From: Saprospira grandis DSM 2844
Lineage (GTDB): Bacteria; Bacteroidota; Bacteroidia; Chitinophagales; Saprospiraceae
DNA: 43,190 bases
Assembly: GCF_000275825.1 (NCBI RefSeq)
Contig: NZ_JH719942.1
Coordinates: 3,912,948 to 3,956,137, forward strand
Reading direction: 5' to 3'
A program made the translations under genes and the position numbers. Below the pieces are notes generated by a model, which saw nothing but the letters and a program-made list of their open reading frames with translations, was not told the origin of the DNA and did not search any database. Below are positions 1 to 43,073 of this stretch, piece after piece (the first letter of the stretch is position 1; every line of letters begins with the position of its first letter).

Positions 1-136
1 TTTTGGGGCCTGCCGCCTTCGGCGGCCGGGCCCTTGCCGGGCTCGCAGGTCTGCTCGGCCCTGCGCCAGCAAGCTGGCTGGGTCTGGCCTGCGGCCACCC
101 TTTCAGGCCCCTAGGCCGGCGGGCCTTCGGCCCTTT
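1..136 (+). repeat. GC-rich intergenic element, copy R1
   Basis: Forward copy of the dispersed element. It starts at the window edge with TTTTGGGGCC and may be cut there. The head hairpin is GCCGCC-TTC-GGCGGC. The core CGCAGGTCTGCTCGGCCCT follows, then a hairpin cassette with arms CCAGC/GCTGG, the GGTCTGGCC anchor, and a tail with further GGCC-rich hairpins. It faces R2 (330-492) tail to tail across the same gap. The small ORFs that run through it are judged to be artefacts. Confidence 0.85.
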
Positions 137-138
137 TA

Positions 139-158
139 CTGTAGGTTGAAACCTACAG
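139..158. repeat. Short palindrome after R1
   Basis: A 20-bp inverted repeat with 9-bp arms (CTGTAGGTT / AACCTACAG) around GA. Exact copies sit at 20109-20128 and 25081-25100, each at the tail of a forward GC-rich element. A degenerate inverted copy lies at 42900-42919. Confidence 0.85.
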
Positions 159-192
159 CCATACAACAACCCCATTCTACATCTATAGTGCA

Positions 193-212
193 GAGAGGAT
201 TAAAATCCTCTC
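193..212. repeat. Short palindrome with AA centre
   Basis: Perfect inverted repeat with arms GAGAGGATT and AATCCTCTC around AA. Its build (about 9-bp arms and a two-base A-rich centre) is like the palindrome at 139-158, but the arm sequence differs. The rest of 159-283 shows no gene. Confidence 0.7.
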
Positions 213-283
213 CCGCTTTGAACAAGGGTTATTTTTTCTTCCGTAGTTTGATTTTGTTTTTTTCTCCCCCATAAATTTCATCA

Positions 284-345
284 GCAAACAAGGGCTTTAG
301 CCCGCCAGTTTGCCCAGTCTACAAGCATGGGCTTCAGCCTATGGG
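284..345 (+). repeat. Double-hairpin element, copy 1
   Basis: Two hairpins in a row. The first (284-313) has outer arms GCAAAC/GTTTGC and inner arms GGGCT/AGCCC. The second (326-343) has arms CATGGGC/GCCTATG with one wobble pair and a TTCA loop. Copies lie at 42653-42714 (+) and 42766-42828 (-). The first hairpin of the last copy is the exact reverse complement of 284-313. It adjoins the tail of element R2. Confidence 0.75.
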
Positions 346-492
346 CCCAAAACCGCCCAACCGCCGAAGAAAACAGCCAAAAGAAAAAGACTGTTGAGCG
401 GCCACAACAAGCCCTTTAGGGCGCAGTTCGACGACCAAGGGGAGTAACCGTAGCGCCGCAAGGCGAAGCCGCAGCGGAGGCCCCAAAAAAAA
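330..492 (-). repeat. GC-rich intergenic element, divergent copy R2
   Basis: Reverse-oriented copy whose head (CCCC followed by eight A on the + strand, 481-492) faces the 3' end of nhaD. Its tail matches the tails of R12 and R13 (GGCCGCTCAAC, a T-rich stretch, GGCGG, TTTTGGGCCCAT). The middle lacks the usual GCAGGTCTGC core, so it looks like a recombinant or decayed copy. A 60-codon ORF through it is not considered real. Confidence 0.7.
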
Positions 493-518
493 CGCCTACT
501 CCTTATAGCAGGAATAGG
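485..518 (-). terminator. Intrinsic terminator downstream of nhaD
   Basis: On the minus strand, arms GCCTATTCCT / AGGAGTAGGC with one mismatch surround a short loop. A run of T follows directly; this run is also the head T-run of element R2. It lies about 30 nt past the nhaD stop codon. Confidence 0.75.
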
Positions 519-547
519 CATTTTGTATAGAAAGCTGAGGCTAGCGC

Positions 548-1045
548 TTAGTGTCCTCCACCTGTGGGGGCGGCATGGCTAGCGGTATCAATAAGGTAAG
601 GTTCTACGAAGGGGTGCATGATCAAGAAAACGATGGCTCCGGCAAAGAAACCCAAAAGGGCCAACCAGGCAATTTTCTTCATATACCACATAAAGTCGAT
701 TTTTTCCATACCCATAGCGGCCACACCAGCGGCAGAACCAATGATGAGCATAGATCCTCCGGTACCGGCAGAATAGGCCAAGAAATGCCAGAGTTTGTGG
801 TCCATCACATACTCTTCGGTAGAGTACATCCCCATAGCGGCGGCCACCAAAGGCACATTATCAATTAGGGCAGAACCGAGGCCCAAAATAGCCACTACAA
901 GGTCCAAACCAACTACACCGGGTAGGTATTCTTTTTCAGAAGGGAAGACGCCGTTCATGGCTTCGGCCAAATCCTTAAGTACATTGAGGGACTCTAGAGA
1001 GGCTACGGCCATCAAGATACCGAGGAAGAAAAGGATACTAGACAT
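548..1045 (-). CDS. nhaD: NhaD-type Na+/H+ antiporter, C-terminal part
   Basis: This frame encodes 165 residues and begins with an ATG that lies inside the conserved antiporter sequence. It continues the protein encoded at 1082-1939 in the same frame: after the TAG at 1082-1084 come twelve sense codons (KYSAHHALSRIE) and then MSSILFFLGILMAV. Visible family features are the LFFLGILMAVASLESL helix, the ALIDNVPLVAA segment and the AGTGGSMLIIGSAAG segment, all typical of NhaD exchangers of the ArsB/NhaD superfamily, which swap cytoplasmic Na+ for H+. The end is natural (TAA, then a terminator). This piece lacks the first half of the transporter. It is functional only if the stop is read through or if two polypeptides assemble; otherwise it is part of a pseudogene. 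Confidence 0.8.
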   Translation of the reverse strand: MSSILFFLGILMAVASLESLNVLKDLAEAMNGVFPSEKEYLPGVVGLDLVVAILGLGSALIDNVPLVAAAMGMYSTEEYVMDHKLWHFLAYSAGTGGSMLIIGSAAGVAAMGMEKIDFMWYMKKIAWLALLGFFAGAIVFLIMHPFVEPYLIDTASHAAPTGGGH

Positions 1046-1081
1046 CTCGATACGAGAAAGGGCGTGGTGAGCAGAGTATTT

Positions 1082-1939: not shown

Positions 1940-2107
1940 AATTTAATTTATTAGGAATAGTAAGTGAAAATGCATTCGTATCCGCTAAAAATAGTGATTT
2001 TGATTTGATTGGGGCATTGGGGGCCAAGTTTTTTTTGGCAATATAATTTAATGCCCACACAAAAGTTTGTTTGTCAGTTGTTTAGAGCGGGTCTAAAAGC
2101 TAAAGCC

Positions 2108-2128
2108 CTCTTAAGGTTTCCTTAAGAG
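2108..2128 (-). terminator. Hairpin downstream of proC
   Basis: Perfect 9-bp stem CTCTTAAGG / CCTTAAGAG with a 3-nt loop, about 30 nt past the proC stop codon. On the minus strand it is followed by GGGCTTTAGCTTTTA, not by a clean U-run, so it may be a weak terminator or an mRNA 3'-end stabiliser. The rest of the gap to nhaD (1940-2107) holds only T-rich sequence. Confidence 0.45.
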
Positions 2129-2159
2129 AGCCGGTTCTGACAGCTTAGTCCGCCGCCGA

Positions 2160-3008: not shown

Positions 3009-3230
3009 TTTTTTTGGGGCTTGCCCGCCCTGCGGCCGGGCCGGGCTGTGTCGCAGCTCGCAGGTCTGCTCGGCCCTTCGCTTTTTTCGCTTTGCTCAAA
3101 AAGCTCGGTCTGGCCTTCGGCCACTGCTATCCATCCCTAAGCCTGCGGCCCTTCGGGCCTGCAAAACGCAGCCGGCTAGCTTTTGGCCCAATATCCGAAG
3201 CTAGTTAATTTATGCCAAGGCTTGGCATAA
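3009..3230 (+). repeat. GC-rich intergenic element, copy R3
   Basis: The head is TTTTTTTGGGGC with a hairpin built from GCCCGCC and GCGGCCGGGC-type arms. The core CGCAGGTCTGCTCGGCCCT is intact. The exchangeable cassette is of the CGCTTTTTTCGC / GCTCAAAAAGC type, followed by GGTCTGGCC. The tail includes CATCCCTAAGCC, a CTAGCTT/AAGCTAG hairpin (3176-3204) and a near-perfect palindrome at 3210-3230 (TTATGCCAAG/CTTGGCATAA). It lies in the divergent gap between proC and the acyl-CoA dehydrogenase, with its head towards the proC start. Confidence 0.88.
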
Positions 3231-4585: not shown

Positions 4586-4766
4586 GCCTGCCGAAGCCGA
4601 ATGCCCAGCCCAAGCTCTGCGGTGGAGCCGGCTGAGGGATAGATAGCAGTGGCCCGAAGGGCCAGACCCAGCTTTTTGAGCAAAGCGAAAAAAGCGCAGG
4701 GCCGAGCAGGCTTGCGAGCTGCGACATAGCCCGACCCGCCCGCAGGGCGGGGCAGCCCCAAAAAAA
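4586..4766 (-). repeat. GC-rich intergenic element, copy R4
   Basis: Reverse copy whose head (GGCAGCCCC then seven A on the + strand) points to the EF-hand gene. The core is a variant (AGGGCCGAGCAGGCTTGCGAG on + has one changed arm). The cassette is of the CTTTTTGAGCAAAGCGAAAAAAGCG type seen in R3. The tail carries GGCTGAGGGATAGATAGCAGTGG. It fills the whole gap between the terminator at 4585 and the EF-hand leader. Confidence 0.87.
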
Positions 4767-7844: not shown

Positions 7845-8013
7845 GAAGGCGGCGCAGCCGCCGCCGGGGAGCGCAGCGACCGGCTGAGGGATGGATAGCA
7901 GTGGCCGCAGGCCAGACCCAGTTTTTGAGCGTAGCGAAAAAACGCAGGGCCGAGCGAGCAGCGAGCTGCGACACAGCCCGACCCGCCCAAAGGGCGGGGC
8001 AGCCCCAAAAAAA
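7845..8013 (-). repeat. GC-rich intergenic element, copy R5
   Basis: Reverse copy; the head (CCCC plus seven A, 8003-8013) faces the Wzz-like gene. The core is the GAGCGAGCAGCGAGC variant, in which CTCGCTGCTCGCTCGG replaces CTCGCAGGTCTGCTCGG and self-pairing is kept. The tail ends in the hairpin GGCGGC-GCA-GCCGCC. It lies between gapA and the polysaccharide operon. Confidence 0.87.
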
Positions 8014-11671: not shown

Positions 11672-11872
11672 TTTTGGGGCCTCCCGCCTTTGGCGGGCGC
11701 TACGTTTCGGGGCTCGCAGGTCTGCTCGGCCCTTCGCCGCTTTCAGCGGCTCGGTCTGGCCTTTGGCCCCCCCTGCACATCGCTAGGCCAAAAAAGCGGG
11801 CCAAGGCCCGGAGCGCAGGCGGCCAAGCCGCCTGCCCAGAAAAACTAGATTTTGGCCCAAAATCTGAAGCAG
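11672..11872 (+). repeat. GC-rich intergenic element, copy R6
   Basis: Forward copy that begins on the base after the PhyH stop codon. The head hairpin is CCCGCC-TTT-GGCGGG followed by GCTACGTTTCGGGGC. The core is intact and the cassette is CCGCTTTCAGCGG. The tail ends in AGATTTTGGCCCAAAATCT (11847-11865), which corresponds to the CTAGCTTTTGGCCC part of the R3 tail. Confidence 0.88.
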
Positions 11873-13267: not shown

Positions 13268-13324
13268 TTTTGGACCTAGATCTATTTCGTTTCAAATTTC
13301 GTATTAGAAAAGGGCTATCAGGCT

Positions 13325-13475
13325 CTACAGGGCGCGAAGCGCCCGCAGGCTGAGGGATGGAAAGCAGTGGCCCGAAGGGCCAGACCCAGGCGGCGAAGCC
13401 GCCGCAGGGCCGAGCAGACCTGCGAGCTGCGACACAGCCCGACCCGACCAAAGGGAGGGGCAGCCCCCAAAAAAA
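13325..13475 (-). repeat. GC-rich intergenic element, copy R7
   Basis: Reverse copy ending in CCCCC plus seven A only 18 nt before the ATG of the giant gene, so it should form most of that gene's 5' leader or contain its promoter. The core is intact, the cassette is GGCGGC-GAA-GCCGCC, and the tail ends in GGGCGC-GAA-GCGCCC. Confidence 0.88.
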
Positions 13476-13493: not shown

Positions 13494-16400
13494 ATGCGAC
13501 AGGTATACCTATTTATATTTCTTTTGACGGTGCTTTTGCCTTTGCAGGCTCAGGTTGATTTGGGGGCAGACCAGCCGCTTTGTCCTGCTAGTAGTTTGAC
13601 CTTAGATGCGGGCAATTCGGGCAGTAGTTATTTGTGGAATACCGGAGCGACAACGCAGAGCATTGTCGTGAATAACCCGGGCATTTATTGGGTGGATGTA
13701 GATGCGGGTTCGGGTCCTGTTCGAGATAGCATAGAGCTTTTGGCCGTGGCGCCTTTGTCGGGACCAACATATTTGCAAGATACTACAGCTTGTGTGGGGA
13801 GTCCATTATTATTTTTGGGAGATCCTTTGGCGGCCTATCAGTTTTGGTCTAGCCCTTTAGGAGGAATTTTGGGCGAGGGAGATAGTTTGTCTATGCCCTT
13901 ACAGCAAGAGGACAGTTTGTATTGGAATGCCTATGCGAGCAGTTTGCAATATAGCCGAGGGGAGCAGCAAAGAGGAACTACTTCACAGGCGGGATTTTAT
14001 GCAACAGGCAGTTATCGGGGGATCCGTTTTGATGCCAAGGAGGCCTTTGTTTTGCAATCGGTAGAAGTAGAATTTAATGGAAGTTATACGGGCCAAGTTA
14101 GCTTATTGGATGCTTCTGGGCAGAGTTTGGCTAGCTATGCGATACAGACCGTTGGGGCTGGCGTATTTGTTTTGCCCTTAAACTTTTCGGTACCGCAGGC
14201 CAATGGCTTAGAGTTGCGCTTGACGGGTAGTGGAGGGCAGCCCTATATGGAATATCCCTACTCGAATTGGGGGAATCATGATTATGAAGAATTAAGTTTA
14301 TTGGCGGGAACGCCCTACTCGACCGTTTATAGTTGTTTTTATAATTGGCAGATAGAGCGTTTTGCTTGTTTGGAGCAGCAAGGGGTTGTTTTGGGTAGTT
14401 TGTATACGCCTAGTACCAACTTTCCGGAAGATACCCTAAGTTGTGGCAGTTCTGTTTTCTTGGATGCGACGAATGCAGGGCCAACAATTTATAACTGGAG
14501 CAATGGAGCGACTACGGCTAGTATTTTAGTGGGGAGTACACAGCAAGTTAGTTTGAGTATGACCGATAGCAGCGGAAGCTGTAGTTTTACGGATAGTATT
14601 TATGTAGAGGTGTTGCAACCACAGGGGATATTTACCAACTTTACAGATAGTACGGCTTGTTTGGGCCAGCCTCTACTCTTGGAAGCTTATAATGCTGCTA
14701 ATACTACCTTTTGGCGTAGGCAGGCTGATGATAGTCTATTGGCCTTGGGCAGTAGTTATAGCTTGACCGTAAGCGGGGCCGATAGTGTTTATGCACAAAG
14801 TTTTGGTGGCTATGAAATCTTGAGTCGGGGAGAAGCGCAGCGAGGAACGACTTCACAGGCCAACTTTTACAACCTAGGCAACTATCGGGGCATTGTCTTT
14901 AATGCCTTGACTGATTTTTATTTGGAGTCGGTAGAACTAGACTTTAATGCGGGTTTTCAGGGCGAGCTACAATTGCGCTCGTCTTCGGGGCAGGTTTTGG
15001 CCAGTCATCCTTTTAGTGCAGCCAATGCGGGTAGTTATACTATTTTGCTCAATTTTACGGTGCCTGCGGGCAATGGGCTAGAATTGCGTTTAGTAGGGGC
15101 AGGGGGACAGCTCTATATGGAATTCCCTTATAGCAATTGGTCCAATTTACAGTATCCAGAACTAGAATTTGTAACAGGAACTCCTTATGGGACTGTTTAT
15201 GCAGGCTTTTACAACTGGAAAATTCGGGACTTCAAATGTGAAGAGCGGGCTTTGGTTCATTGGGACGCGGCTTATACACCCATAGTTGATTTTCCGACAG
15301 ATACCATTAGCTGTGGGGCCGATGTTTTATTGGATGCGAGCAATGCGGGGCCAACAATTTACAGCTGGAGCGATGGCAGCCAACAACCGCAGCTTTTGGT
15401 TAGTAATAGTGGTCCTTATGCCATTGACTTAGTAGATAGCACCGGCGCTTGTGCTAGCCGAGACAGTATCTATGTCAATATTGTTGCTCCTTTGGGGGCC
15501 AGCAGCTCTATAAACGACAGCAGCATTTGTGTGGGGCAAGAAATAAGCTTTTTGGCTCAATCAGCAGGCAGCCATCGTTTTTGGAGAGACTTTAACGGAC
15601 AGCTTTTAGCCACTACAGATAGTCTATCTTTGCTGGTACAACAAACAGATAGCTTTTACTTGCAAGCTTTTGGCGCTTATACGTTGAACACTAGAGGTGA
15701 AACACAAAGAAATACAACTACGCAGGCGGGTTATTATAATGTGGGCAATTATCGGGGGCTTCGTTTTAATGCCTTGACCGACTTCTACTTAGAGTCTGTA
15801 GAAATAGATCTTAATGCTCCTTTTAGTGGTAGCGTACAGCTACTAGATGCCTCGGGGCAAATTTTGGCTACAGCCACCGTTAATGCCACAGCTGCGGGAA
15901 CCCTAGAACAACCCCTTAACTTTGTGGTTCCAGCGGCCAATGATTTAGAGTTGCGTTTAGTGGGAACTGGCGGGCAGGTCTTTGTCGAATTCCCCTACTC
16001 TAATTGGTCTAGTTTGCAGTATGCCGACTTGGAAATACAAGGAGGAACTCCTTTTTCTACAGTTTATAACTGCTTCTATAATTGGCAGCTTAGAGACTAC
16101 TTCTGTGAAGAACGGGATACAGTAAATATTGAAGCCTTAGCCACCCCAACTTTTGATTTTCCTCAAGATAGTTTGGTTTGTGGACAGCAAATTACCTTAG
16201 ATATGAGCTACCTTTCTGCGGCTAGCTATAACTGGAGTAATGGTAGCAATTCGCCAACTATTCAGCTCACACAATCTCAAAATATAGAACTGTCAGCGAC
16301 TATAGGAAGTTGTAGTTACCAAGATAGTATGCAGCTCTATATTGTAGATACCGTTGCTTTCCAATTGAATGATACGGTTTCTTGTGGTGGCGACTTAACC

Positions 16401-19400
16401 TTAGCCGCCGATGGAGATAGCTCGGGCATTTACCTTTGGTGGGATGCCGCTCAAGCTGGGCAGTTTTTGCATGAAGGACAAAACTATACTACAACTTTGT
16501 ACGATAGTAGCCAGTTTTTTGTAGAAGCCTATGCCAAGTTTCCAGAGATGCTCATAGCAGGTTTTATACAGAATAATAATACCACCCAAGGCGATTATTT
16601 TATCTTGCCTTCTGACCGTAGAGGAATTCGTTTTGATGTGACTGAGGATGTTTACCTAGAAACAGTTGATTTTTATGCCAATGGTCTAGTTAATGGCCGA
16701 GTACTAATTTTGGACTCTAATGGTCAACATATTTATGAGCAGTTTTATAACTTCAATCATTTTGGCGCGCTTACCATTGATATAAACGTATTTTTGAGAC
16801 AGGGGACCGGCTACCAAATCCTTTTTGAAAAATATACAGGTACAGGCGCACTTTATGCAGATTACCCTACTAGCTTTCCATTAGATTATGGCACTATTCA
16901 AATGCAAGAAGGTGTTCCTTTTGAACAGGTCTATTACTATTTCTATAACTGGAAACTGAGCGAACTGAGCTGCCCTGGCCAAAGACAAGCTATGAATGTA
17001 GATGTCCTTCCAACAATTAACACCAACTGGGGGAGAGACTCTACAGCCTGCGGAAATAGCCTAACCCTAGATCTTAGCTACCCTAATGCTAGTTATCTAT
17101 GGTCTGACGGAAGTGTGACCCCAACAATTACACTTAGTCAAAGTGATACGGTTTGGGTCCAAGCACAAATAGGAAGCTGTACCACCGAAGATACCTTGAT
17201 TATTTATCTAACCAACCCCCCTAGCTTTAATCAGTTGCCCAATGACACCACAGTCTGTGCCTCTGGAATCGATATTTTTGCAAGCAGTACAGGCTATACC
17301 CAAATTTGGTATGCCGATTCTATCGGACAGCAAATTTTGGGCTACGGTGATAGCTTGCACCTAACCGTTACAGATAGTCAAACAGTTTGGCTAGAGGGAG
17401 TAGACTTTATGCATTCTTCTCAATTTTATGGATGGCAAGAGTTCCCTACCCTAAATGGCTCTTATGAAGAAATTGGCAACTCCTTCTATCCCGAAAGAGG
17501 ACTCTTCTTTGACGCCCAAGAACCCCTGCTGCTCGATCAGTTTTCCGTTTTTGCAGACTCTAGCGCAGAAGTCGAAATTGTACTGCTAGATCGTTTTGGC
17601 TATAGCCTGTATCGCCAAAATTATAATTTGCAGTTAGGAGAAAATATAATCAGCCCCCAATGGTTTGTACCTCAAGCTAATGGTTATCGACTAACTATCC
17701 GGATGATTTGGGGGAAAGGTATTTATACCATAAATAGTTTCTCTTACCCGCTAACTACCAATGCCTTAACTATTCAATCTGGATACCCACTAGCTTTAGG
17801 AACTTCTTACCCCGCCTTCTTCCGATGGGAAATTAGCCGCCTAGCTTGTGCCACTAACCGTATCCCCGTTCAAGTTAATGTGCCCGAAAAACCAATCATT
17901 AGCATGCCTTCTGATACCGCTATCTGTGGATCTGCCAATAACTTAGCACTTACTGCCACAACAACGAACCCCAATTATCAATACCAATGGAGTATGGGCG
18001 ATACAAGCAATCAAGTTCAGCTTAACCAAGCCGGTAGCTATAGCGTTACCGTGACCAATATGGGCCTTTGCGAAAGCCGAAAAAGCTTTGACCTGCAGCT
18101 GCTTTCGCCCCCCTTGCCTTATTTTGCCAGCGATAGTAGTATCTGTAGCTCTAGAACACTAGATATGTTGGCTCCGCCCAACAATGGAATCCTACAATGG
18201 CAAAATAGTCAGTCGGTGGCCTTCTTAGGGGCTCCATATACCGCCTATATAGATAGTAGCCAAAGCTTTATTATCCAAAATCAAGCAAAAGCCTATACCA
18301 GATTAGGCGAACAAATGGCCCCCAATCCACAAAACCTTAACCAATATCAACCCTTTATCTTACCAAATACCTTTAATACTTTTCAAGCTGCTTTACTCGA
18401 CTCTGTAGCCGTCTATGCCGCTACAGCCCCAACTACGGTCGAACTGCTCCTCCGTGATGCAAATAATCAGGAAATAGCCCGGAAAAGCTTTACTATTCAA
18501 CAGGCACAAACTAAGGTGTTCCTAGCCGCAAATTTCTTTATTCCTGCCGGTAATGACTATCGCCTAGAATTAGTTGGCTTAAGTACCGACTTCTTGATCC
18601 AAGAAGATTTAAATTATCCTATTAGCTCTAGTGCCCATGTGGCAGAGTTGAACGGGACAACTTTACCCAGCCTAAGCTATAGCCCTTTCTTCGATTGGCA
18701 TTTTGGCTATGGCATGACAAGCTGTGCCGCAAACCAAACCGATAGCTTTAGCGTAAATGTACGCCTGCCTTCTGTTTTAGCCGATAGCTTGTTTAGCTGC
18801 GATACCGCAGTACTCGATGCTAGCTTTGCTCAAGCCCAATCTTATCACTGGAATACCGGCGATACAACAGCAAGCATTATCGCCGATACAACAGGCCTTT
18901 ATTATTTGAGTATGGATGCTGGAAATGGCTGCCAAACTAATGACTCTATCTTCTTTCAGCTACCAGAACCTCTCGAATTACCCGCCAATGGTCCTCTTTG
19001 TACCGATGAACTTAGTAGTAATTATAGTGACCATATGGCCCAAAGCTTTAGCTGGTCTACTGGCGATACAACGAGCCAGATTATTCCCCCAAGCCCCGGA
19101 AATTATAGCCTGAGTTTGATCGATAACTTTGGTTGCCAGCTCTCTGATTCTATCTTTATTAGCCAGTTGGCTAACCAACCCTATGTGAATTTAGGCTCTC
19201 TATTGCCTATCTGCGATAACCGCTTACTCGATGCAGGTTTTGGTAATCAAGGCTATAGCTATAGTTGGTCTACTGGCGATACCAGCCAAACCGTCCTCGC
19301 TAGTTCTGCCGGCGTCTATGAAGTCACGGTAACCGCCCCAACAGGCTGTAGCGGACAAGATTCGGTCATCTTATATCAAGATAGCCTGCCTACCGCCAAC

Positions 19401-19954: not shown

Positions 19955-20128
19955 TTTTTTGGGGCCTGCCGCCTTCGGCGGCCGGGCCCTTGCCGGGCTC
20001 GCAGGTCTGCTCGGCCCTTCGCTTTTTTCGCTCTGCTCAAAAAACTCGGTCTGCCGCTTCGCGGCACCCTTTCAGGCCCCTAGGCCGACGGGCCTTCGGC
20101 CCTTTTTACTGTAGGTTGAAACCTACAG
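19955..20128 (+). repeat. GC-rich intergenic element, copy R8, with palindrome
   Basis: Forward copy with the same head type as R1 (CTGCCGCCTTCGGCGG, GGCCCTTGCC). The core is intact. The cassette is the CGCTTTTTTCGC / GCTCAAAAAAC type. The anchor is changed to GGTCTGCC, so GCCGC-TTC-GCGGC replaces the usual hairpin. It ends in the 20-bp palindrome at 20109-20128. Confidence 0.88.
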
Positions 20129-20187
20129 TAAGCATGGTATTGCTTCGCAATGACTTATGAATGAGGGCTAAAACCCCTCATGAATTT

Positions 20188-20821: not shown

Positions 20822-20890
20822 AGCTGTATTTATTAGGGTGGTAAAATGACTATTGGGCCAAAAAGAATTAGGGAGCCAAAAAGGCCAAAA

Positions 20891-21036
20891 GCAGGGCGGC
20901 CGCCTTCGGCTGAGGGATGGATAGCAGTGGCCCAAAGGGCCAGACCCAGCCGCCAAAGGCGGCGCAGGGCCGAGCAGACCTGCGAGCTGCGACACAGCCC
21001 GACCCGAGCGTAGCGAAGGGGCAGCCCCAAAAAAAA
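20891..21036 (-). repeat. GC-rich intergenic element, copy R9
   Basis: Reverse copy; the head (CCCC plus eight A) is 3 nt from the TAG stop of RDD gene 2. The core is intact and the cassette is GCCGCC-AAA-GGCGGC. In the head, GAGCGTAGCGAAGGGGC replaces the GCGGGCGGGGC arm. It lies between two RDD paralogues. Confidence 0.87.
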
Positions 21037-24912: not shown

Positions 24913-25100
24913 TTTGGGGCCTGCCGCCTGCGGCGGCCGGGCTGTGTCAGGGCTCGCAGGTCTGCTCGGCCCTGCAGGCTTTTTCGCTTCGCTTCAAAAG
25001 CCTTTGGTCTGCGGCTGCGCCGCCCCCTTTTCCATCCCTAGGCCTGCGGCCCTTCGGGCCTGTAGGATGGATATATATACCTGTAGGTTGAAACCTACAG
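24913..25100 (+). repeat. GC-rich intergenic element, copy R10, with palindrome
   Basis: Forward copy with a mixed head: GCCGCCTGCGGCGG as in R1 and R8, then GGGCTGTGTCAGGGC as in R3. The core is intact and the cassette arms are AGGCTTTTTCGC / TTCAAAAGCCT. The tail has CATCCCTAGGCC and ATGGATATATATACC, then the 20-bp palindrome (25081-25100). Confidence 0.88.
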
Positions 25101-25132
25101 CCATACAACAGCGGTATTGCTTTGCAAAAATT

Positions 25133-29175: not shown

Positions 29176-29183
29176 AAGATGGA

Positions 29184-29325
29184 TTTGGGGCTTGCCCGCC
29201 CTGCGGGCGGGCCGGGCTGTGCGGCAGCTCGCTGCTCGCTCGGCCCAGCGCAAAAAAGCGAAGCTTTTTTGCTTGCTCTGGCCCTTTGGGCCACTGCCTA
29301 CCATCCCTAAGCCGAGGGCCAGCCG
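29184..29325 (+). repeat. GC-rich intergenic element, copy R11a
   Basis: Forward copy 9 nt after the stop of the 904-residue protein. The head hairpin is GCCCGCC-CTG-CGGGCGGGC. The core is the GCTCGCTGCTCGCTCGG variant. The cassette arms are GCAAAAAAGCGAAGC / GCTTTTTTGC. It is fused tail to tail with R11b. Confidence 0.85.
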
Positions 29326-29478
29326 CTTGGCCGGGCGGTCCTTGGCCCAGCGCTGCGGAGTGGGTGGCCGTAGGCCAGACCGAAGGCGAAACGAAGTGAA
29401 GCCTGAAGGGCCGAGCAGACTTGCGAGCCCCGCAGCATAGCGGCGGCCAGCAAAGCTGGCCGCGGGCCCCAAAAAAAA
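29326..29478 (-). repeat. GC-rich intergenic element, copy R11b
   Basis: Reverse copy whose head (CCCC plus eight A) faces hpt. The head hairpin is GCGGCCAGC-AAA-GCTGGCCGC. The core is the CTCGCAAGTCTGCTCGG variant. The cassette is GAAGGCGAAACGAAGTGAAGCC, shared with R17. Confidence 0.85.
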
Positions 29479-32509: not shown

Positions 32510-32521
32510 TGAGTATAAAGA

Positions 32522-32728
32522 TTTGGGGCCCGCGGCCAGCTAGGCTTTGCCTAGCTGGCCGCCGCTATGCTGCGGGGCTCGCTGTTCGCTCGGCCCTTCG
32601 CTTTTTCGCTTTGCTCAAAAGCTCGGTCTGGCCTGCGGCCCCCCCTTCGCAGCGCTGGGCCGCTCAACGGTCTTTTTTCTTTTGGGCATTCTTCTTTGGC
32701 GGTTTTGGGCCCATGGGCTGAAGCCCTT
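32522..32728 (+). repeat. GC-rich intergenic element, copy R12 (left flank of the AT-rich island)
   Basis: Forward copy with the long head hairpin GGCCAGCTAGGC-TTT-GCCTAGCTGGCC. From 32574 to 32726 it is identical, as far as I can read, to 34401-34553 in R13. The core is the CTCGCTGTTCGCTCGG variant. The tail includes GGGCCGCTCAACGG, a T-rich stretch and CATGGGCTGAAGCCC. Confidence 0.9.
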
Positions 32729-32763
32729 CTTTGCTGTTTTAGGACAAGCACATAATTTATAAA

Positions 32764-33387
32764 ATGCTAAATTTAATGAGAGTAAGCAGTATTGTCGCTT
32801 TGAGTACATTGTATTGCCTTTTCTTTGGTTGCAGTAGTTCTCCTTCAATCAAAGGAGTAGTGAAAAGGATGACCATCTGCCACGATTTTAGAAATTTACC
32901 GAATAGTGATTGCAATCTAGTATTTATTTTAATTGATATTGAGGCTGTAGATTTTCCTAAGGAGGAAATCATATTGTCCTATCCTTTTGGACAATCCAAC
33001 TGTAGGGGTAGTGTTCTTCTAGCAGAAAATTTACGTATTAAGGTTAAAGATAAATTATACCCCCTCAGCTCATTAAAAGGGGGAGAGGCCGCTGAAGTGC
33101 TAACAAAAGCGGAGAATGTATTTTCGGTTGTGTTTATTGATAGTCTTATGTCGCCTCCACATTCATTAGAGGTTTTCTCTAATTACTATAAAACTGTTTT
33201 TGATGATGGATTTGAGGTTATCTTAGATAGAGGGCCGAGAAGAAAGCCAGACTATCTTTCAATAGTCTGTGAGAAAATACCTGATTTTCAATATCAAGTA
33301 TTGAAAGACAGTATCGGATGGAAGGCTGTTTTTGAGCATTCTTCAGAATTCGATTACTCTCCCTTTGCTCCAGCAACTATAAAATAA
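32764..33387 (+). CDS. Orphan lipoprotein of the AT-rich island
   Basis: 207 residues. The N-terminus (MLNLMRVSSIVALSTLYCLFFGCSSS) is a lipoprotein signal with the acceptor cysteine at residue 23, although the -3 residue is Phe. Mature features include a SYPFGQSNCRGSVLL segment, a KLYPLSSLKGGEAAEVL segment and a C-terminal KDSIGWKAVFEHSSEFDY region. I do not recognise the family. Base composition is visibly lower in GC than the surrounding genes, and codon choice (ATA, TTA, AGA) differs. It is the first of three same-strand orphan genes between direct repeats. Acquired or fast-evolving surface protein is an inference. Confidence 0.65.
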   Translation: MLNLMRVSSIVALSTLYCLFFGCSSSPSIKGVVKRMTICHDFRNLPNSDCNLVFILIDIEAVDFPKEEIILSYPFGQSNCRGSVLLAENLRIKVKDKLYPLSSLKGGEAAEVLTKAENVFSVVFIDSLMSPPHSLEVFSNYYKTVFDDGFEVILDRGPRRKPDYLSIVCEKIPDFQYQVLKDSIGWKAVFEHSSEFDYSPFAPATIK

Positions 33388-33473
33388 CGGCAATGAATAA
33401 ATAGTAAGTTTTTAAGCCAGTATACAACAGTTGTTCTGCCTTTCTGCACAAGCGCCTTAAAATAATACCTATC

Positions 33474-33860
33474 ATGGATATACTTAAAATAATATTTTTT
33501 GTTTTTAACCTACACTACAATGCTGCTTTTCCAGAAGATTATATTCCATTCCCAAAACCAGAAGCTGTTCCACAAACTGCCAGATGGCTTGGGGGATATG
33601 ATGGTGGAATTTGGCTGAATATAGACTCAATAGTTCAGAAGAATAACAATATGTACATCTATGCTCAGGTTTATTCGGGGTATTATGGAGAAATCTTAGC
33701 ATCAGGAAAGTTTAAATTATCTTGTGAAGACAGCCTATTCGACTTTGATGAACAAAATGTTGAAAGCGTACTTAATTTTTATCAAGAAGGAAAAATTTTT
33801 ACTTTAGCTGTGAATCAGGATGGCTATTATTGTGCATTTATCTTGGAGGAAAATAATTAG
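33474..33860 (+). CDS. Hypothetical protein of the AT-rich island
   Basis: 128 residues. The start MDILKIIFFVFNLHYNAAFPEDY may be a short signal or anchor. The remainder has alternating strands (GIWLNIDSIVQKNNNMYIYAQVYSGYYGEILASGKFKLSC, FTLAVNQDGYYCAFIL) and looks like a small beta-sandwich or barrel fold. No family recognised. It is AT-rich and in line with its two neighbours. Two cysteines could form a disulfide in the periplasm. The gaps on either side (33388-33473, 33861-33962) carry no GC-rich element. Confidence 0.55.
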   Translation: MDILKIIFFVFNLHYNAAFPEDYIPFPKPEAVPQTARWLGGYDGGIWLNIDSIVQKNNNMYIYAQVYSGYYGEILASGKFKLSCEDSLFDFDEQNVESVLNFYQEGKIFTLAVNQDGYYCAFILEENN

Positions 33861-33962
33861 CTTTAAGACTATTGTATCCCTCCTATATACAACTTTGATT
33901 TGGGGCGAAAAATCTCCTCGAAGACGAAAACTAAACTTATATACCTTTAAATACAGTTGATA

Positions 33963-34331
33963 ATGTGGTCCGATAAGTTGAAACAGATAAATAAGAAATT
34001 AAGCAACCACCTATGGTTAGATGTAGAAGTTGCTTCAGTTATGGATGAAACATTGGTATTAAATCTAGGCGAAGATTTGACATATAGTCCTACATATAAG
34101 CTTAAATTGGAGGGGGTGAATTATTTTAACCTAGGTCGCTGCTGGACTTGGGAGCCTACTAAGCCATTTATTAAATCCGTTGACTTTTCTTTTATTGAGC
34201 AAGTTAATCGTCAATATGTACAGGAGAGTTTGACAGAAGAAGGAGTAACTTCATTATTTAAACTCTTCACAGAGGAGGATGCATTTTTCTTAGTTGTTGC
34301 AGCACAAATCAAATTGTTAGCTATTGATTAA
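33963..34331 (+). CDS. Small acidic hypothetical protein of the AT-rich island
   Basis: The ATG at 33963 gives 122 residues (MWSDKLKQINKK); a TTG at 33957 is only two codons upstream. The protein is acidic and soluble, without signal or membrane segment. VEVASVMDETLVLNLGEDLTYSPTYKLKLEGVNYF is strand-rich, and the C-terminal half is helical. Its size and composition resemble small immunity-type or house-of-unknown proteins often seen in accessory cassettes, but this is only an analogy. A box TACCTTTA (33942-33949) lies just upstream. AT-rich like the other two. R13 begins 31 nt after its stop codon. Confidence 0.55.
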   Translation: MWSDKLKQINKKLSNHLWLDVEVASVMDETLVLNLGEDLTYSPTYKLKLEGVNYFNLGRCWTWEPTKPFIKSVDFSFIEQVNRQYVQESLTEEGVTSLFKLFTEEDAFFLVVAAQIKLLAID

Positions 34332-34362
34332 GTTAAAAGTTATCAATTTTTATAATAAGTTG

Positions 34363-34553
34363 TTTTTGGGGCCTCCCGCCTTCGGCGGGCGCTACGTTTC
34401 GGGGCTCGCTGTTCGCTCGGCCCTTCGCTTTTTCGCTTTGCTCAAAAGCTCGGTCTGGCCTGCGGCCCCCCCTTCGCAGCGCTGGGCCGCTCAACGGTCT
34501 TTTTTCTTTTGGGCATTCTTCTTTGGCGGTTTTGGGCCCATGGGCTGAAGCCC
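34363..34553 (+). repeat. GC-rich intergenic element, copy R13 (right flank of the AT-rich island)
   Basis: Forward copy. The head is the R6 type (CCCGCC-TTC-GGCGGG, GCTACGTTTCGGGGC), but from 34401 on it is identical to R12 for 153 bp. It stands tail to tail with R14. Confidence 0.9.
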
Positions 34554-34585
34554 ATTTTTATTGCCTTTAGCATGGCCGCTTTGGT

Positions 34586-34759
34586 ATATATATCCATCCT
34601 ACAGGCGGCGAAGCCGCCGCAAAGGAGCGAAGCGACTTGGCCTAGGGGCCTGCAAGGGTGCCGCGTAGCGGCAGACCCAGCCAGCTTGCTGGCGCAGGGC
34701 CGAGCAGACCTGCGAGCCCTGCAAGGGCCCGGCCGCCGCAGGCGGCAGGCCCCAAAAAA
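34586..34759 (-). repeat. GC-rich intergenic element, copy R14
   Basis: Reverse copy whose head (CCCC plus six A) faces the SDR gene. The head is the R1/R8 type with GCCGCCGCAGGCGGC arms. The core is intact, the cassette is CCAGC-TT-GCTGG as in R1, and the anchor is altered to the R8 form (GCCGC/GCGGC). The tail has CCTAGGGGCCTGCAAGGG and ATATATATCCATCC as in R10. Confidence 0.88.
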
Positions 34760-34890
34760 TCATTAGAAAATAGAGGAGATAAATAAGAAACCTTAGGCCA
34801 AGGCCTATAGGGTAGCCAAAAATAAGTTGCTTTGCAAAACAATATATTGCGGCGCTCTTCTTATCTTGTAGGACCAAAAATCAATCAGTT

Positions 34891-38690: not shown

Positions 38691-38844
38691 TTTTTTGGGG
38701 CTGTCCCGCCCTGCAGGCGGGTCGCTATGCTTTGGGGCTCGCAAGTCTGCTCGGCCCTTCAGCCGCCTTTGGCGGCTTCGGTCTGGCCTGCGGCCACCCC
38801 GCCGCAGCGCTCATCCTGCGGCCCTCCGGGCCTGCAAGACGCCA
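38691..38844 (+). repeat. GC-rich intergenic element, copy R15
   Basis: Forward copy whose head T-run lies 29 nt from the start codon of the BatA-like gene. The head hairpin is CCCGCC-CTGCA-GGCGGG. The core is the CTCGCAAGTCTGCTCGG variant and the cassette is GCCGCC-TTT-GGCGGC. It is paired tail to tail with R16. The 98 nt between them contain an ATTTAGC/GCTAAAT dyad and T-rich sequence but no gene. Confidence 0.87.
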
Positions 38845-38942
38845 TAGTTTGGACCATTGATTTAGCCCGGCGCTAAATATAAACAATCTTTAGGGCTAAT
38901 GTTTTTTTTAGGGCCAAAAGCTTTGTTAAGCCCTTAGCGGAA

Positions 38943-39069
38943 ACGGCCTAGCGCTGGGAAGCAGTGCCGCATCGCGGCAGAGCCAGGCGGCGCAGCCGCC
39001 GCAGGGCCGAGCAGACCTGCGAGCTGCAGACCATAGCGCCGACGACTAAAAGGAGGCGGAGGCCCCTAA
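38943..39069 (-). repeat. GC-rich intergenic element, copy R16
   Basis: Reverse copy fused to the BCCT transporter stop codon (TAG followed by GGGCC on the minus strand), without a T-run. The core is intact and the cassette is GGCGGC-GCA-GCCGCC. The head is unusual (GGCGCCGACGACTAAAAGG region) and shares GTCGTCG with R2. Confidence 0.82.
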
Positions 39070-40592
39070 TAACCAAAACGCTCTTTAATCATCCAGTAGA
39101 GTAGGCCAATACTAGCGCTCAAGAGCAGGAGCAAGGCGGGCAAGCCCCCCAAATTAGAGAGCATTTTGATGCCTTCTATACCTGCTTGACTGACCATAAT
39201 GTAGGCAGCGGCACCAATGCAAAGCCCCCAAATTATTTTAATGTAGAGCTTGGGCGATTCCCCCGCTTTTAGTCCATCCATACTAATGCTGCCCATGGCT
39301 TCGGTGTTCGAGTCGGCGGCAGTAACATAGGATAAAAAGACCGTAAAAATGAAAAGCAGGGCCATAAAGGGCATGAGCGGGGCGGCATATTGGGCCATCA
39401 GTTCATAGATGATGGATTCGGCTCCATGGGCCGCAAGGCTGCCCAGCAAATCTTGGCCAGTTTGCACCGCCCAAAGGGCCGAGCCGCCAAAAATGCTCAT
39501 CCAGATAAGGGCAAAAATAGAGGGAAAAATCCAGTTGAAGAGCAGCATTTCTCTAAGGGTATAGCCCTTGGCAATTTTGCCCAAAAAGAGGGCCGTAATA
39601 GGCGCCCAAGCCATCCAATTGGCCCAGTAGAAAGTGGTCCAGCTATTGGCCCAATCCTCTTCTGGATGATAAATGTTGTAGAGGTTTTTTTCTATAAAAT
39701 GACCAAAGTACTCGCCTAAACTACGCCCAATTAAGGGCAGCATTTTTTGGCCCGGCCCCAAAAGTAAAAAACTAAGCGCAATAAAAATAAAGGCCCAAAT
39801 ATTTACCGCCGATAAAAACTGAATACCTTTCTTGAGCCCCGTTGCCGCCGAAATAATAAAGGCCAAGACGGTCAGTATGCAAAGCAAAAGCAGCATATTG
39901 TTGTTGTTCGCCCAGCCCAATTGGCTGCTTAAGCCCCCCGCCAAAGTGAGCAAACCCGCCCCTAAAGAAGAAGCCATACCCGCCACTAAAGCAAATAAAC
40001 AAAGGCTGTCTATAGTAGAGGATAAGCCCTTGAAGCTATGAAAGCCGCCTTCTTTTTTGGCTTTTAAGAAGGGAAACAAAAGGGCGGTTAAGCTATATTT
40101 TGCCCCATAATTATAGTGGGCCAAGGCAAAGAGTAGGGCCGGCAAACTATAAATGGCATAGGGCGTAAAACTCCAGTGCAAATAGAGGGTAGAAAGGGCA
40201 AATTGAGCGGCTGCTGGACTCTCGGCGGCCAATTTAGCCGCTGCCGGGGGACCCCCATAATGGTAGAGGGGCTCGGCGGTGCCCCAAAATAATATCCCCG
40301 TGGCAATGGTCGTACAGATGGTAATGCTAAACCATTTCCAGCGGCTGAGCAAGGGCTGGGCAGCAGCCCCACCAATGCGGATCTTCCCTAGTGGCGAAAG
40401 TAGCAGGACGAGCAGCAGGCAGAGCATCAAAAAGCTCGTGAGGCTAAACAAGGGACCAAAATTGGCCAGTAGGGCCGCATTTAGGGCTTTCATTTGGGCC
40501 AAAAAGGCTGTTGCTTGGCTCATACTATAGATGATGGCAAATAATAGCAGGCCAAAGCTTGGCCAAAAAACAGTCTTTCGAAGAGTTTGCAT
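39066..40592 (-). CDS. BCCT-family betaine/choline/carnitine transporter
   Basis: The ATG at 40592 (MQTLRKTVFW) gives 508 residues; a TTG at 40607 is less likely. Twelve membrane segments are visible. The conserved glycine-rich region appears as SAATGLKKGIQFLS, and the tryptophan-rich BCCT signature as WTTFYWANWMAWAP, followed by RxMLLFNWIFPSIFALIWMSIFGG and TAADSNTEAM. These carriers take up quaternary ammonium osmolytes with Na+ or H+. The length is standard and the C-terminus is short, without a large osmosensing tail. The start lies 21 nt from the divergent truA start, so the promoters must overlap the coding regions. Confidence 0.93.
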   Translation of the reverse strand: MQTLRKTVFWPSFGLLLFAIIYSMSQATAFLAQMKALNAALLANFGPLFSLTSFLMLCLLLVLLLSPLGKIRIGGAAAQPLLSRWKWFSITICTTIATGILFWGTAEPLYHYGGPPAAAKLAAESPAAAQFALSTLYLHWSFTPYAIYSLPALLFALAHYNYGAKYSLTALLFPFLKAKKEGGFHSFKGLSSTIDSLCLFALVAGMASSLGAGLLTLAGGLSSQLGWANNNNMLLLLCILTVLAFIISAATGLKKGIQFLSAVNIWAFIFIALSFLLLGPGQKMLPLIGRSLGEYFGHFIEKNLYNIYHPEEDWANSWTTFYWANWMAWAPITALFLGKIAKGYTLREMLLFNWIFPSIFALIWMSIFGGSALWAVQTGQDLLGSLAAHGAESIIYELMAQYAAPLMPFMALLFIFTVFLSYVTAADSNTEAMGSISMDGLKAGESPKLYIKIIWGLCIGAAAYIMVSQAGIEGIKMLSNLGGLPALLLLLSASIGLLYWMIKERFGY

Positions 40593-41381: not shown

Positions 41382-42351
41382 CTTGGCTGCGTAGGCGCTC
41401 TTCTACGGTATCGGTTACTGAGCGCAAAATAGAAAAGGCAGTTTCGGCCATTAGGTTGCGTTTGTTATCCAAAAGGGGATTCACTTCTGTTACTTCCATG
41501 CACTTCAGGCGGTCTTCCTGAGCAAATCGACAGAGGAGCTGCCGGGCTTCTGCTGGGGTGAGTCCATTGGGGACCGGAGTGCCGGTGCCCTCAGAAACCA
41601 AATCAGAGTCCATGCTATCTACATCAAAAGAGACATAAATCATATCGCAGTTTTGGAGGTAGTGCAGACTTTCCTCAGCAATGCGGAGTGCGCCTTTTTC
41701 CTGCACCTCAGGCACTTCAAAAACCTTAATTTTATGTTGGTCAACTAAGAAGTTTTCTTCTTTTTCGGTATCTCTCAGGCCAATAAAGACCAGGTCCTCA
41801 GGATATATTTTTGGCGAGACTTCGCCTACTCTTTTAAGCTGCTCCCAATAGACATTGAGCTCGGGTGATAGGTTGTTTCGGCGCATATCTAGGTTGTCAA
41901 AACCCAAAGAGGCGGCCAGGGGCATTCCGTGCACATTGCCAGATGGGGTAGTATAAGGGGTGTGCAAATCGGCATGTGCATCTACCCAGATGACCCCCAG
42001 TCGTTTGTCTGGATAAGTCTTGCGCAGGCCTGCAATAGAGGCCCCCGCCGAAGAGTGGTCGCCAGAAAGGATGGTAAGAAACTGGGTCCCTTCCCGAAGC
42101 AATTGCTCCATAGCATCGGCTACATAATTATAGACCTTGAGGATGCCCTTAATGTGTTTGGCATGTCGGGTGGTCGAGCTGGGCCGAAACAAGATTTCGT
42201 TTTCATTGGGCACCAAATGCAACGGATAGTGGGCAAAATAGGTATCATTCACTTTGAGAGAGGCCACTTTCATGGCGCCAATACCTAGGCTGGCCCCACG
42301 GGTCCCCGCACCCAATTCAGAGCGGATTTCTAAAATTTGAATATTTTCCAT
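41371..42351 (-). CDS. Arginase/agmatinase-family ureohydrolase, probable arginase
   Basis: The ATG at 42351 (MENIQILEIRSELGAGTRG) gives 326 residues; the ATG at 42396 adds 15 residues and would lie upstream of the likely -7 box (TATCTTGG on the minus strand, 42387-42380). The binuclear manganese ligands are all visible: GDHS, DAHADLH and SFDVDSMD, with NGLTPAEA and EVNPLLDNK near the end. SELGAGTRGASLGIGA at the N-terminus is typical of bacterial arginases, which split arginine to ornithine and urea. Ornithine links to proline metabolism, although proC is 40 kb away. It overlaps truA tail to tail. Confidence 0.9.
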   Translation of the reverse strand: MENIQILEIRSELGAGTRGASLGIGAMKVASLKVNDTYFAHYPLHLVPNENEILFRPSSTTRHAKHIKGILKVYNYVADAMEQLLREGTQFLTILSGDHSSAGASIAGLRKTYPDKRLGVIWVDAHADLHTPYTTPSGNVHGMPLAASLGFDNLDMRRNNLSPELNVYWEQLKRVGEVSPKIYPEDLVFIGLRDTEKEENFLVDQHKIKVFEVPEVQEKGALRIAEESLHYLQNCDMIYVSFDVDSMDSDLVSEGTGTPVPNGLTPAEARQLLCRFAQEDRLKCMEVTEVNPLLDNKRNLMAETAFSILRSVTDTVEERLRSQATD

Positions 42352-42448
42352 AGCTGTTGTTGTTGTTCTGTGAAGATGGCCAAGATAAAAAAGCATTGGA
42401 GAAAATAAAAATTATGATTCTATAGCTTTTGCTTCCATCTTATTAGGA

Positions 42449-42642
42449 TTTGGGGCCCGCGGCCAGCAAAGCTGGCCGCCGCTATGCTGCGGGGCTCACA
42501 GGGCTGTTCGGCCCTTCAGGCTTCACTTCGTTTCGCCTTCGGTCTGGCCTGACGGCCACCCACTCCGCAGCGCTGGGCCGTTTGGCCTTCGGCCATGGCG
42601 GCAAAGCCGCCATCTTCAGCCTAAAGGCCGAAGGCCAAACGG
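42449..42642 (+). repeat. GC-rich intergenic element, copy R17, with large nested inverted repeat
   Basis: Forward copy. The head hairpin is GCGGCCAGC-AAA-GCTGGCCGC as in R11b. The core is a variant (CTCACAGGGCTGTTCGG). The cassette AGGCTTCACTTCGTTTCGCCT is also as in R11b. The tail contains 17-bp perfect arms (42578-42594 and 42626-42642) around a second hairpin ATGGCGGC-AAA-GCCGCCAT (42595-42613). Confidence 0.87.
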
Positions 42643-42652
42643 CAAAGAAAAA

Positions 42653-42714
42653 GCGAACAAGGACTTTAGTCCGTCAGTTCGCTCAGTCAACAACCCTGGG
42701 CTTCAGCCCAGGGC
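42653..42714 (+). repeat. Double-hairpin element, copy 2
   Basis: Same plan as 284-345. The first hairpin (42653-42682) has outer arms GCGAAC/GTTCGC and inner arms GGACT/AGTCC; both stems differ from copy 1 but stay paired. The second hairpin (42695-42714) is CCCTGGGC-TTCA-GCCCAGGG. Confidence 0.78.
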
Positions 42715-42765
42715 AGTAAGAATAGAAGTTGTTAAACAAGCTTAAGGGTCTAGTGAGCGTATTTT

Positions 42766-42828
42766 CCCATGGGCTGAAGCCCAGGGTTGTGGGGCTATGC
42801 AAACTGGCGGGCTAAAGCCCTTGTTTGC
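42766..42828 (-). repeat. Double-hairpin element, copy 3
   Basis: Reverse orientation. The first hairpin (42799-42828) is the exact reverse complement of 284-313. The second (42766-42786) is CCCATGGGC/GCCCAGGG. It faces copy 2 head to head or tail to tail within the R17-R18 gap. Confidence 0.78.
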
Positions 42829-42842
42829 TATAAATGATATGG

Positions 42843-42864
42843 GCCGATGGTTTTAACCGTCGGC
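42843..42864. repeat. Short palindrome with TT centre
   Basis: Arms GCCGATGGTT and AACCGTCGGC (one G-T pair) around TT. It has the same build as 139-158 and 193-212. The surrounding 42715-42765 and 42829-42899 hold no gene. Confidence 0.65.
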
Positions 42865-42899
42865 TCATTTTATTGGGCTTAGTATGCCCTCTTTTGTTG

Positions 42900-43073
42900 C
42901 TGTAGGTTTCAACCTCCACGTATATATATCCATCCTCCAGCCCCGAACGCCCCCCGGCCTAGCGCTCCGGCCGGCTCGCCCCCACGCCAGACCGAGCCAG
43001 CTTGCTGGCGAAGGGCCGAGCAGACCTGCGAGCCCCAAAGCGTAGCGCCTGCCGCAGGCAGGAGGCCCCAAAA
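42900..43073 (-). repeat. GC-rich intergenic element, copy R18
   Basis: Reverse copy whose head (CCCC plus four A) points to the gene at the right edge. The head is the R6 type with CTGCC-TGC-GGCAG arms. The core is intact and the cassette CCAGC-AA-GCTGG is as in R1. The tail has CATCC, ATATATA and a decayed form of the CTGTAGGTT palindrome. Confidence 0.87.

Follow-up and report, generated by a model that had tools for sequence, protein, structure and literature searches.

A folded intergenic repeat in Saprospira grandis whose neighbouring copies alternate in orientation

We analysed a stretch of 43,190 nt of the Saprospira grandis DSM 2844 chromosome (G000:C2:3912948-3956137, hereafter the window), which carries many copies of a folded intergenic element. 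Each copy is polar, with a head made of a T-run and GGGG and a tail made of the 3' strand of its closing stem, and the main surprise of the analysis is that neighbouring copies in Saprospira mostly alternate in orientation, an ordering rule that we cannot yet fully explain and that was missed in the original prediction. To our knowledge such an order of orientations is known from no other bacterial repeat. The genome of DSM 2844 is here called G000, the other element-rich Saprospira genomes are G001, G002 and G005, and two further genomes placed in the genus are G003 (63% complete) and G004 (90%).

Alternating orientation of neighbouring copies

Two stretches of G000 were measured, one of 400 kb with 136 copies and the 100-kb window region with 40 copies, and over these 500 kb 151 of 174 neighbours were opposite in orientation. 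The 400 kb alone gave 119 of 135, compared with a mean of 68 (sd 5.8, maximum 89) in 20,000 shuffles. Similar values were obtained in 100-kb regions of all four element-rich genomes (G000 32/39, G001 31/35, G005 29/34, G002 25/33) and in the counterparts of the 400-kb stretch, which are not independent of G000 (113/134 in G001 and 116/135 in G002). Within the window itself, 13 of the 17 transitions among the full copies were opposite, or 15 of 18 when a truncated copy is added. The order held for copies that are alone in their intergenic region (93/105 transitions in the 400 kb; 14/20 in the window region, p 0.058, not significant alone) and for pairs with at least one gene between them (128/149), alike for 1, 2, 3, 4 and 5 or more genes. 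On the complete, annotated plasmid NC_016936.1 (54,948 bp) there are 23 copies round the circle and 22 of 23 neighbours are opposite, with one breach; in 50 kb of NZ_CP116809.1 the figure is 18 of 19, and the breach there adjoins the same thiamine-pyrophosphate enzyme gene as the breach on NC_016936.1.

The strand of the flanking genes did not predict the orientation of a copy (27/27, 16/19, 18/16, 25/27). Pairs less than 500 bp apart were tail-to-tail in 19 cases, head-to-head in one and never in the same orientation, and beyond 6 kb no orientation preference was seen. At a matched spacing of 3.5-5 kb, adjacent pairs were 8 same and 30 opposite, whereas next-but-one pairs were 38 same and 14 opposite, and therefore neighbourhood, not distance, decides orientation.

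Abundance, fold and evolution

Copies are found genome-wide and not only in the window. There are 655 exact cores in the 4.495 Mb of G000 (318 forward, 337 reverse), and a reversed-core control gave 0 matches. With a density of 0.34 copies per kb in the 400-kb stretch and 0.40 in the 100-kb stretch, the element makes up 5.0% and 6.0% of this DNA, and extrapolation from the 500 kb gives an estimated 1,500-1,800 copies per Saprospira genome; the genome-wide distribution that had been anticipated from the window was thus borne out, with more than a thousand copies by this extrapolation. The motif CGCARGTCTGCTCGGCCCT occurs 742 times in G000, 694 in G001, 654 in G005 and 287 in G002, and was not found in G003 or G004. 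Tool results support that copies sit at gene junctions and are mainly intergenic, as had been claimed, although not all of them do: without filtering, 4/40 copies in the window region and 14/136 in the 400-kb stretch overlap an open reading frame (ORF) by more than 40 bp. After dropping ORFs covered by a copy over more than 30%, 244 of 19,843 element bp lie inside called genes, a figure that leans towards intergenic because of that prior removal. Some copies (L153:821-1136) have a conserved extended tail that continues for about 170 bp, with dozens of matches in G001, G002 and G005 together, and a different repeat of about 400 bp (L124:11389-11797) has many matches in G001 and some in G002.

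The predicted fold consists of a closing stem P1, the hairpins P2, P4 and P5, in which three-base loops are commonest, and a long-range pairing P3, all arranged around a conserved core. Tool results support this base-paired plan through covariation both within Saprospira and across genera, in agreement with the structured, high-copy family first proposed. When copies of G000, G001 and G002 were pooled, many of them orthologous, P1a read as GGCCT paired with AGGCC in 133/152, GGCTG with CAGCC in 124/137, GGCCC with GGGCC in 36/38 and GGCTT with AAGCC in 14/26, and overall as an exact complement in 334/392 copies. P3 joins the four bases that precede CTCGC to the four that follow hairpin P5; of 346 parsed copies, 306 have complementary bases here, compared with a mean of 116 (maximum 139) in 200 shuffles of partners. 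In an alignment of 40 copies (A1), 94.3% of the cells are paired, and the score for covariation, 0.466, compares with 0.183 +/- 0.013 when shuffled and at most 0.138 when slid; these figures lean towards the fold because the structure was chosen from the same alignment. Watson-Crick, G-T and A-C pairs number 773/7/4 in P5, 1,191/20/3 in P2 and 1,106/3/5 in P4, where the Watson-Crick counts lean high because the hairpins were chosen for pairing. Since G-T pairs are so few, both strands would fold nearly alike. By RNA folding energy the top strand was lower in 45 of 111 copies and the bottom strand in 64, whereas under DNA folding parameters the bottom strand was more stable in 103/111 and the top in 6/111, a preference that may come from special triloop terms.

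The same plan is present in relatives. A covariance model (R1) found copies in 13 of 90 genomes, with at most the best 39 candidates scored per genome and strict filters, so that weak copies may be missed and a count of 39 is a ceiling; in 35 genomes from other families of the order there were none among the best 39 candidates each. The core GCTCGCTRTTCGCTCGG occurs in 33/298 genomes and 22/112 genera of the family (310-496 times in four Saprospira, 311 in G041, which belongs to another copy-rich genus, 149 in G018 and 1-14 in the other carriers), and its reversed control gave 0 matches across the 298 genomes. Judged by eye, the plan is retained in other genera with different sequences in the stems, both in P1 (GCATCA/TGATGC, GCGTA/TACGC, GCGTG/CACGC, GCGGT/ACCGC, GCGCA/TGCGC) and in P3 (GTAG/CTAC, AGAG/CTCT, ATAGG/CCTAT), and in an alignment of 32 copies (A2) the P1 columns pair in 71-94% and the P3 columns in 88-100%. 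Three plasmids also carry copies. Among viral contigs, a 17-base core occurs in 10 IMG/VR stretches and a 19-base core in none; R1 was not significant in those 10 (best E 0.34), which we therefore take as chance or remote matches.

Between species, copies seldom change site. The comparison covered about 220 kb of collinear DNA, at 93-94% identity to G001 and mostly 84-91% to G002. Place and orientation differ in 2 of 65 copy-bearing intervals in G001 and 6 of 60 in G002, which has four collinearity breaks in addition, and the tool results thus support that both are mostly unchanged between species. At the same time, differences of entire helices are frequent between orthologous copies in the 18 triples, out of 58, that were inspected. 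Where P3 had changed between orthologues, pairing was retained in 12/14 cases for G001 and 12/21 for G002; of the other nine in G002, eight are broken in one species and one in both. The corresponding comparison of P1a gave pairing kept in 2/10 and 1/12, most of these cases being misread upstream G-runs, and by eye one compensated change was seen (copy 293813 against G001). G002 further has two inversions, one of about 32 kb (283745-316138) and one of about 4.5 kb (380162-384643), positions being those of region B (G000:C2:1.0-1.4 Mb). Element copies lie at three of the four breakpoints, the exception being the right end of the 4.5-kb inversion.

Copies in the window

In the window the core CGCAGGTCTGCTCGGCCCT has 14 matches at up to 3 mismatches, 10 of them exact, and none in 100 dinucleotide shuffles of the window. 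An iterated profile search recovered 18 full copies of 123-165 bp each, in both orientations, and a covariance model trained on 40 copies from another G000 stretch recovered the identical 18 (E <= 2e-11). With one truncated copy this makes 19, so that the number of copies, their two orientations and the ten exact cores of the original prediction were all recovered. The truncated copy is on the minus strand, at about 388-500, where the head profile matches 449-500 with E 4.9e-5. It has the T-run, GGGG, P2 and part of the linker with a 45-nt insert, and no core; it is presumably the copy that had been described as lacking it.

The full copies on the plus strand lie at 1-139, beginning at the window edge, 3010-3169, 11672-11794, 19955-20114, 24913-25077, 29183-29320, 32521-32665, 34363-34492, 38691-38844 and 42448-42598, and those on the minus strand at 4618-4765, 7875-8012, 13323-13474, 20901-21034, 29328-29477, 34631-34760, 38922-39072 and 42923-43075. 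As had been noted, one copy abuts a stop codon, namely the copy at 11672, whose head follows an ORF ending at 11671. The head of the copy at 13323 lies 20 bp before an ORF of 2138 aa (13494-19910, with internal repeats spaced about 870 bp), and the copy at 20901 overlaps the listed start of ORF 20246-20995. The copies at 29183 and 29328 are the left and right halves of a tail-to-tail pair, 8 bp apart. The copy at 38922 is without a clean T-run, and the one at 42448 has the core variant CACAGGGCTGT, a paired change in the short core stem.

Other repeats accompany the copies. A module of about 45 nt, GGTTACTCCCTTYGGTCGTCGAACTGCGGNCTAAAGNCCTTGTTGTCG, lies in the linker of some of them (window 388-470; G000:C2:1.0-1.4 Mb) and is absent from their orthologues, and in others the core is split by a module of about 35 nt, so that one repeat is nested inside another. 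The short palindrome CTGTAGGTTGAAACCTACAG stands just past element tails at 139-168, 20109-20138, 25081-25110 and 42900-42929, the fourth being imperfect. A separate intergenic repeat at 283-344 and 42652-42713 (82% identical) contains GGGCTTTAGCCC-like and GGGCTTCAGCC hairpins. Finally, the segment 34384-34559, which reaches into the copy at 34363, is 96% identical to 32557-32732; these direct copies enclose three small ORFs without a Pfam match at E <= 1e-5, and in G001 and G005 the interval 32557-34559 is shorter by about 1.1-1.2 kb.

Origin and possible role of the element

We hypothesise, as a reading that is quite possible though short of probable, that the element is a once-mobile repeat whose copies are now kept as polar, paired boundary marks around gene blocks. 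In the Saprospira lineage the family would have expanded as a non-autonomous repeat, dropping copies into existing gene junctions, and copies would now be retained for working as oppositely oriented neighbours, like the opening and closing brackets of gene blocks, the head side facing into a block that typically holds 2-3 genes. Since a bracket has an inside and an outside, the brackets of non-nested blocks must alternate, and this was the only simple rule found that fits the Saprospira order data. We place the function at the DNA level because both strands would fold alike, with few G-U pairs, and gene strand is irrelevant; the element would most likely be a polar anchor or boundary bound by a putative nucleoid or topology protein.

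Gene order in relatives is compatible with entry into existing junctions. On NC_016936.1 the pur genes lie on one strand, with copies in the order purQ (+) purH (-) phosphoribosylaminoimidazolesuccinocarboxamide synthase, purB (+) purD (-) purN purF (+). The gene order purQ-H-C-B-D-N-F is identical in G003; in G004 the cluster falls on two contigs, with the matched genes in the same order and more DNA between purD and purF. Because the order is the same in a relative without detected copies, the copies of the plasmid pur cluster were probably inserted into pre-existing junctions. Two window junctions that bear copies are likewise short in G004: the genes flanking the pair at 29183-29477 are adjacent in G003 and G004, with 77 bp between the ORFs in G004, and the G004 matches to the two genes flanking the copy at 24913 are 82 bp apart. 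From the rarity of the element elsewhere we infer a gain of copies in Saprospira and not a loss in G003 and G004. Besides genes of de novo purine synthesis, NC_016936.1 has guaA/guaB, pyrF and a phenylacetate (paa) cluster, and for this reason it resembles a small chromosome more than an accessory plasmid.

Several observations weigh against the proposed boundary marks. Gene order does not always argue for insertion in place: three neighbouring genes of G003 and G004, meaB included, lie singly in three separate tail-to-tail blocks of Saprospira (a fourth, head-bounded neighbour of the meaB group still adjoins one of the three), and two head-bounded genes that are adjacent in G018 lie more than 100 kb apart in G001 and G002. 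As to the order of copies, 13% of neighbours break the alternation, and hidden partial copies do not account for these breaks, since whole-profile remnants (E <= 10) occur in only 2 of 63 same-orientation gaps and partial copies found with head or tail profiles (E <= 0.01) in 1 of 63 (gaps pooled, some orthologous). G041 gave 6 same and 8 opposite neighbours, from core matches with up to 3 mismatches on contig fragments, so that alternation is shown for Saprospira only. G003 and G004, although placed in the genus, have no detected copy, G003 having none among its best 39 R1 candidates. As to the fold, the number of pair types in A1 (22 against 23.5 shuffled) was the one of five covariation measures not above control, and minimum-energy RNA folding of single copies formed P1a in 45/111 and P3 in 29/111. 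Most single copies would thus by energy alone favour other pairings, and the proposed fold rests on covariation, not energy. The paired changes could stem from gene conversion between copies, and at least 2 uncompensated P1a changes were seen by eye (copies 193124 and 389187 against G002). Single copies have also been lost without visible harm, leaving a decayed remnant in G002 and about 10 nt in G000. On the other side, GC content at third codon positions (GC3) speaks for the boundary reading, being higher in head-bounded than in tail-bounded genes in 5/5 segments (p 0.0003-0.04; genes between same-orientation copies left out, and the G001 and G002 segments may be orthologous to each other), but it is a small difference without explanation. 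The boundary reading would account for the order, whereas its protein partner and effect remain putative.

A purely selfish origin is in our view nearly as possible, and likewise short of probable. The element would then be a non-autonomous repeat of the repetitive extragenic palindromic (REP) or miniature inverted-repeat transposable element (MITE) type, copied in trans by a single-strand HUH/Y1-type transposase; the structure would be its substrate and the alternation an insertion polarity rule, for example copying inverted into the next junction. This is compatible with the patchy distribution (a genome may hold anything from 1 to several hundred cores), with the copies on three plasmids, with the bottom-strand preference under DNA parameters and with the presence of a Y1 transposase gene in 9/9 genomes searched, 1-3 in each of the four element-rich Saprospira. 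Moreover, GCTACG occurs in 19 of 32 A2 copies, corresponding to a bottom-strand GTAG beside hairpin P2. In the three Saprospira Y1 loci scanned, one copy lies on one side within the 1.5-kb flanks. However, the five other genomes searched, including G003 and G004 with no copy detected, have 2-8 Y1 matches each. No target duplication was seen in the four variable sites aligned, where remnants and deletions are seen, and only 2 of 65 copy-bearing intervals differ between G000 and G001. In G000 neighbours share no more sequence than distant copies, and the birth of tail-to-tail or head-to-head partners as siblings was rejected because partners are not more alike there; in G002, adjacent opposite copies do share slightly more. 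The distribution follows from mobile spread, which does not alone explain the order or the paired changes at fixed sites, by which many orthologous copies retain P3.

REPs are described as palindromes of 20-40 bp that fall into families tagged with GTAG or CGTC and whose partners mostly lie 20-100 bp from each other (PMC3116915, PMC3733652). The Saprospira element resembles REPs, bacterial interspersed mosaic elements (BIMEs) and REPINs, repeats associated with RAYT transposases, in being high-copy, intergenic palindromic DNA, in its inverted pairs, in an alternation that is also found within BIMEs and in single-stranded hairpins (PMC3116915, PMC3733652, PMC2817692). Unlike REPs, it is about 125-165 bp long with several helices and not a single imperfect palindrome of 20-40 bp, and it has no constant GTAG or CGTC tag: its head is a T-run and a G-run, and the bottom-strand GTAG beside P2 is replaced by other letters in the rest of the A2 copies. 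Unlike in BIMEs, it alternates over kilobases across genes and not at regular short spacing in one intergenic cluster. Palindrome size, tag and spacing therefore set it apart from REP/REPIN and BIME, and Rfam gave no match in the window at gathering scores or in five loci of other genera at E <= 1, which bears out the original prediction as far as Rfam goes. RUP, Correia and RU-1/ERIC are MITE-like small mobile sequences. Like MITEs, the element is a short, non-coding intergenic repeat of variable copy number, but no terminal inverted repeat was noticed beyond the short P1 stem, no target duplication was seen in the four sites, and it has a complex conserved core and an alternating order. In the literature searched, no title or abstract start describes this element, and the available text of the S. 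grandis WHT genome announcement has 0 mentions of repeat, repetitive or intergenic.

That each copy is transcribed and acts as a structured RNA, either by itself as a small RNA or within the mRNA in its processing, stability or termination, appears improbable. The multi-branched plan, the conserved core, the covariation across genera and the position of copies between co-directional, operon-like genes would fit such a role. The idea of an RNA folding on one strand, or of a 3'-end element, which the original prediction had entertained, nevertheless finds no support: orientation is independent of the flanking gene strands, and copies in both orientations stand between the co-directional pur and paa genes. 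In P5 and P4 the scarcity of G-T pairs nearly matches that of A-C mismatches, an excess being seen only in P2, RNA folding energy shows no top-strand preference, and thus neither comparison gave a clear RNA strand. Nor would an RNA predict alternation.

We consider it very unlikely, and disfavour the idea, that the pattern is what survives recombination, direct neighbours deleting the genes between them and being purged while inverted ones are harmless. Same-orientation pairs are indeed scarce below 2.5 kb (10, against 67 tail-to-tail and 18 head-to-head), and most breakpoints of the G002 inversions are at copies. The distance-matched 3.5-5 kb comparison rejects such a purge, and head-to-head pairs are also scarce below 1.5 kb (4 against 44 tail-to-tail).

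Genes in tail-to-tail pairs differ somewhat from the others: taken over all 400 kb they are shorter (p 0.009; 1/5 segments at p < 0.05), are found less often in the G002 segment (34/41 against 86/91 head-bounded) and, among hand-picked proteins, have a Pfam match in 6/10 cases against 9/10. That these pairs are the ends of a cargo-carrying mobile cassette, whose inside genes moved as units, is the least credible explanation and, for purH and purD, largely refuted: non-nested units would alternate automatically, the shorter length and lower GC3 of the genes and the scattered meaB neighbours fit, and loci of G278, G070, G014 and G018 gave 4 tail-to-tail, 1 same and 0 head-to-head among adjacent cores up to 5 kb apart (several with 2-3 mismatches), but the neighbours of purH and purD, each of which lies within a tail-to-tail pair of the plasmid, are unchanged in G003. 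Dispersal also affects head-bounded neighbours, Pfam-matched tail-bounded genes resemble ordinary enzymes, and in G000 partner copies show no greater likeness than other copies do.

Returning to the proposed boundary marks, convergent CTCF sites at vertebrate loop anchors are polar, domain-bounding elements, and by analogy such elements give an alternating orientation along the chromosome. They differ in belonging to another domain of life, whereas the Saprospira blocks are of a few kb, the element is folded and its protein partner is putative. In its widest form, which we regard as rather doubtful, the hypothesis would be that the chromosome is partitioned in units of a few kb by a polar, folded DNA element, whose copies were placed in alternation into pre-existing junctions without regard to transcription. 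It would be a boundary system of a prokaryote, with an inside and an outside, comparable to convergent loop anchors and kept by selection on pairing at each site.

In the stretches measured, about 5% of the genome of a free-living bacterium is one folded intergenic element, mostly fixed between species, and neither gene strand nor spacing nor the simple recombination model tested explains its ordering rule. With its 23 copies, the small annotated plasmid makes the element directly testable. If functional, it would constitute a genome-wide organising system; if selfish, it would have spread with a strict polarity between neighbours.

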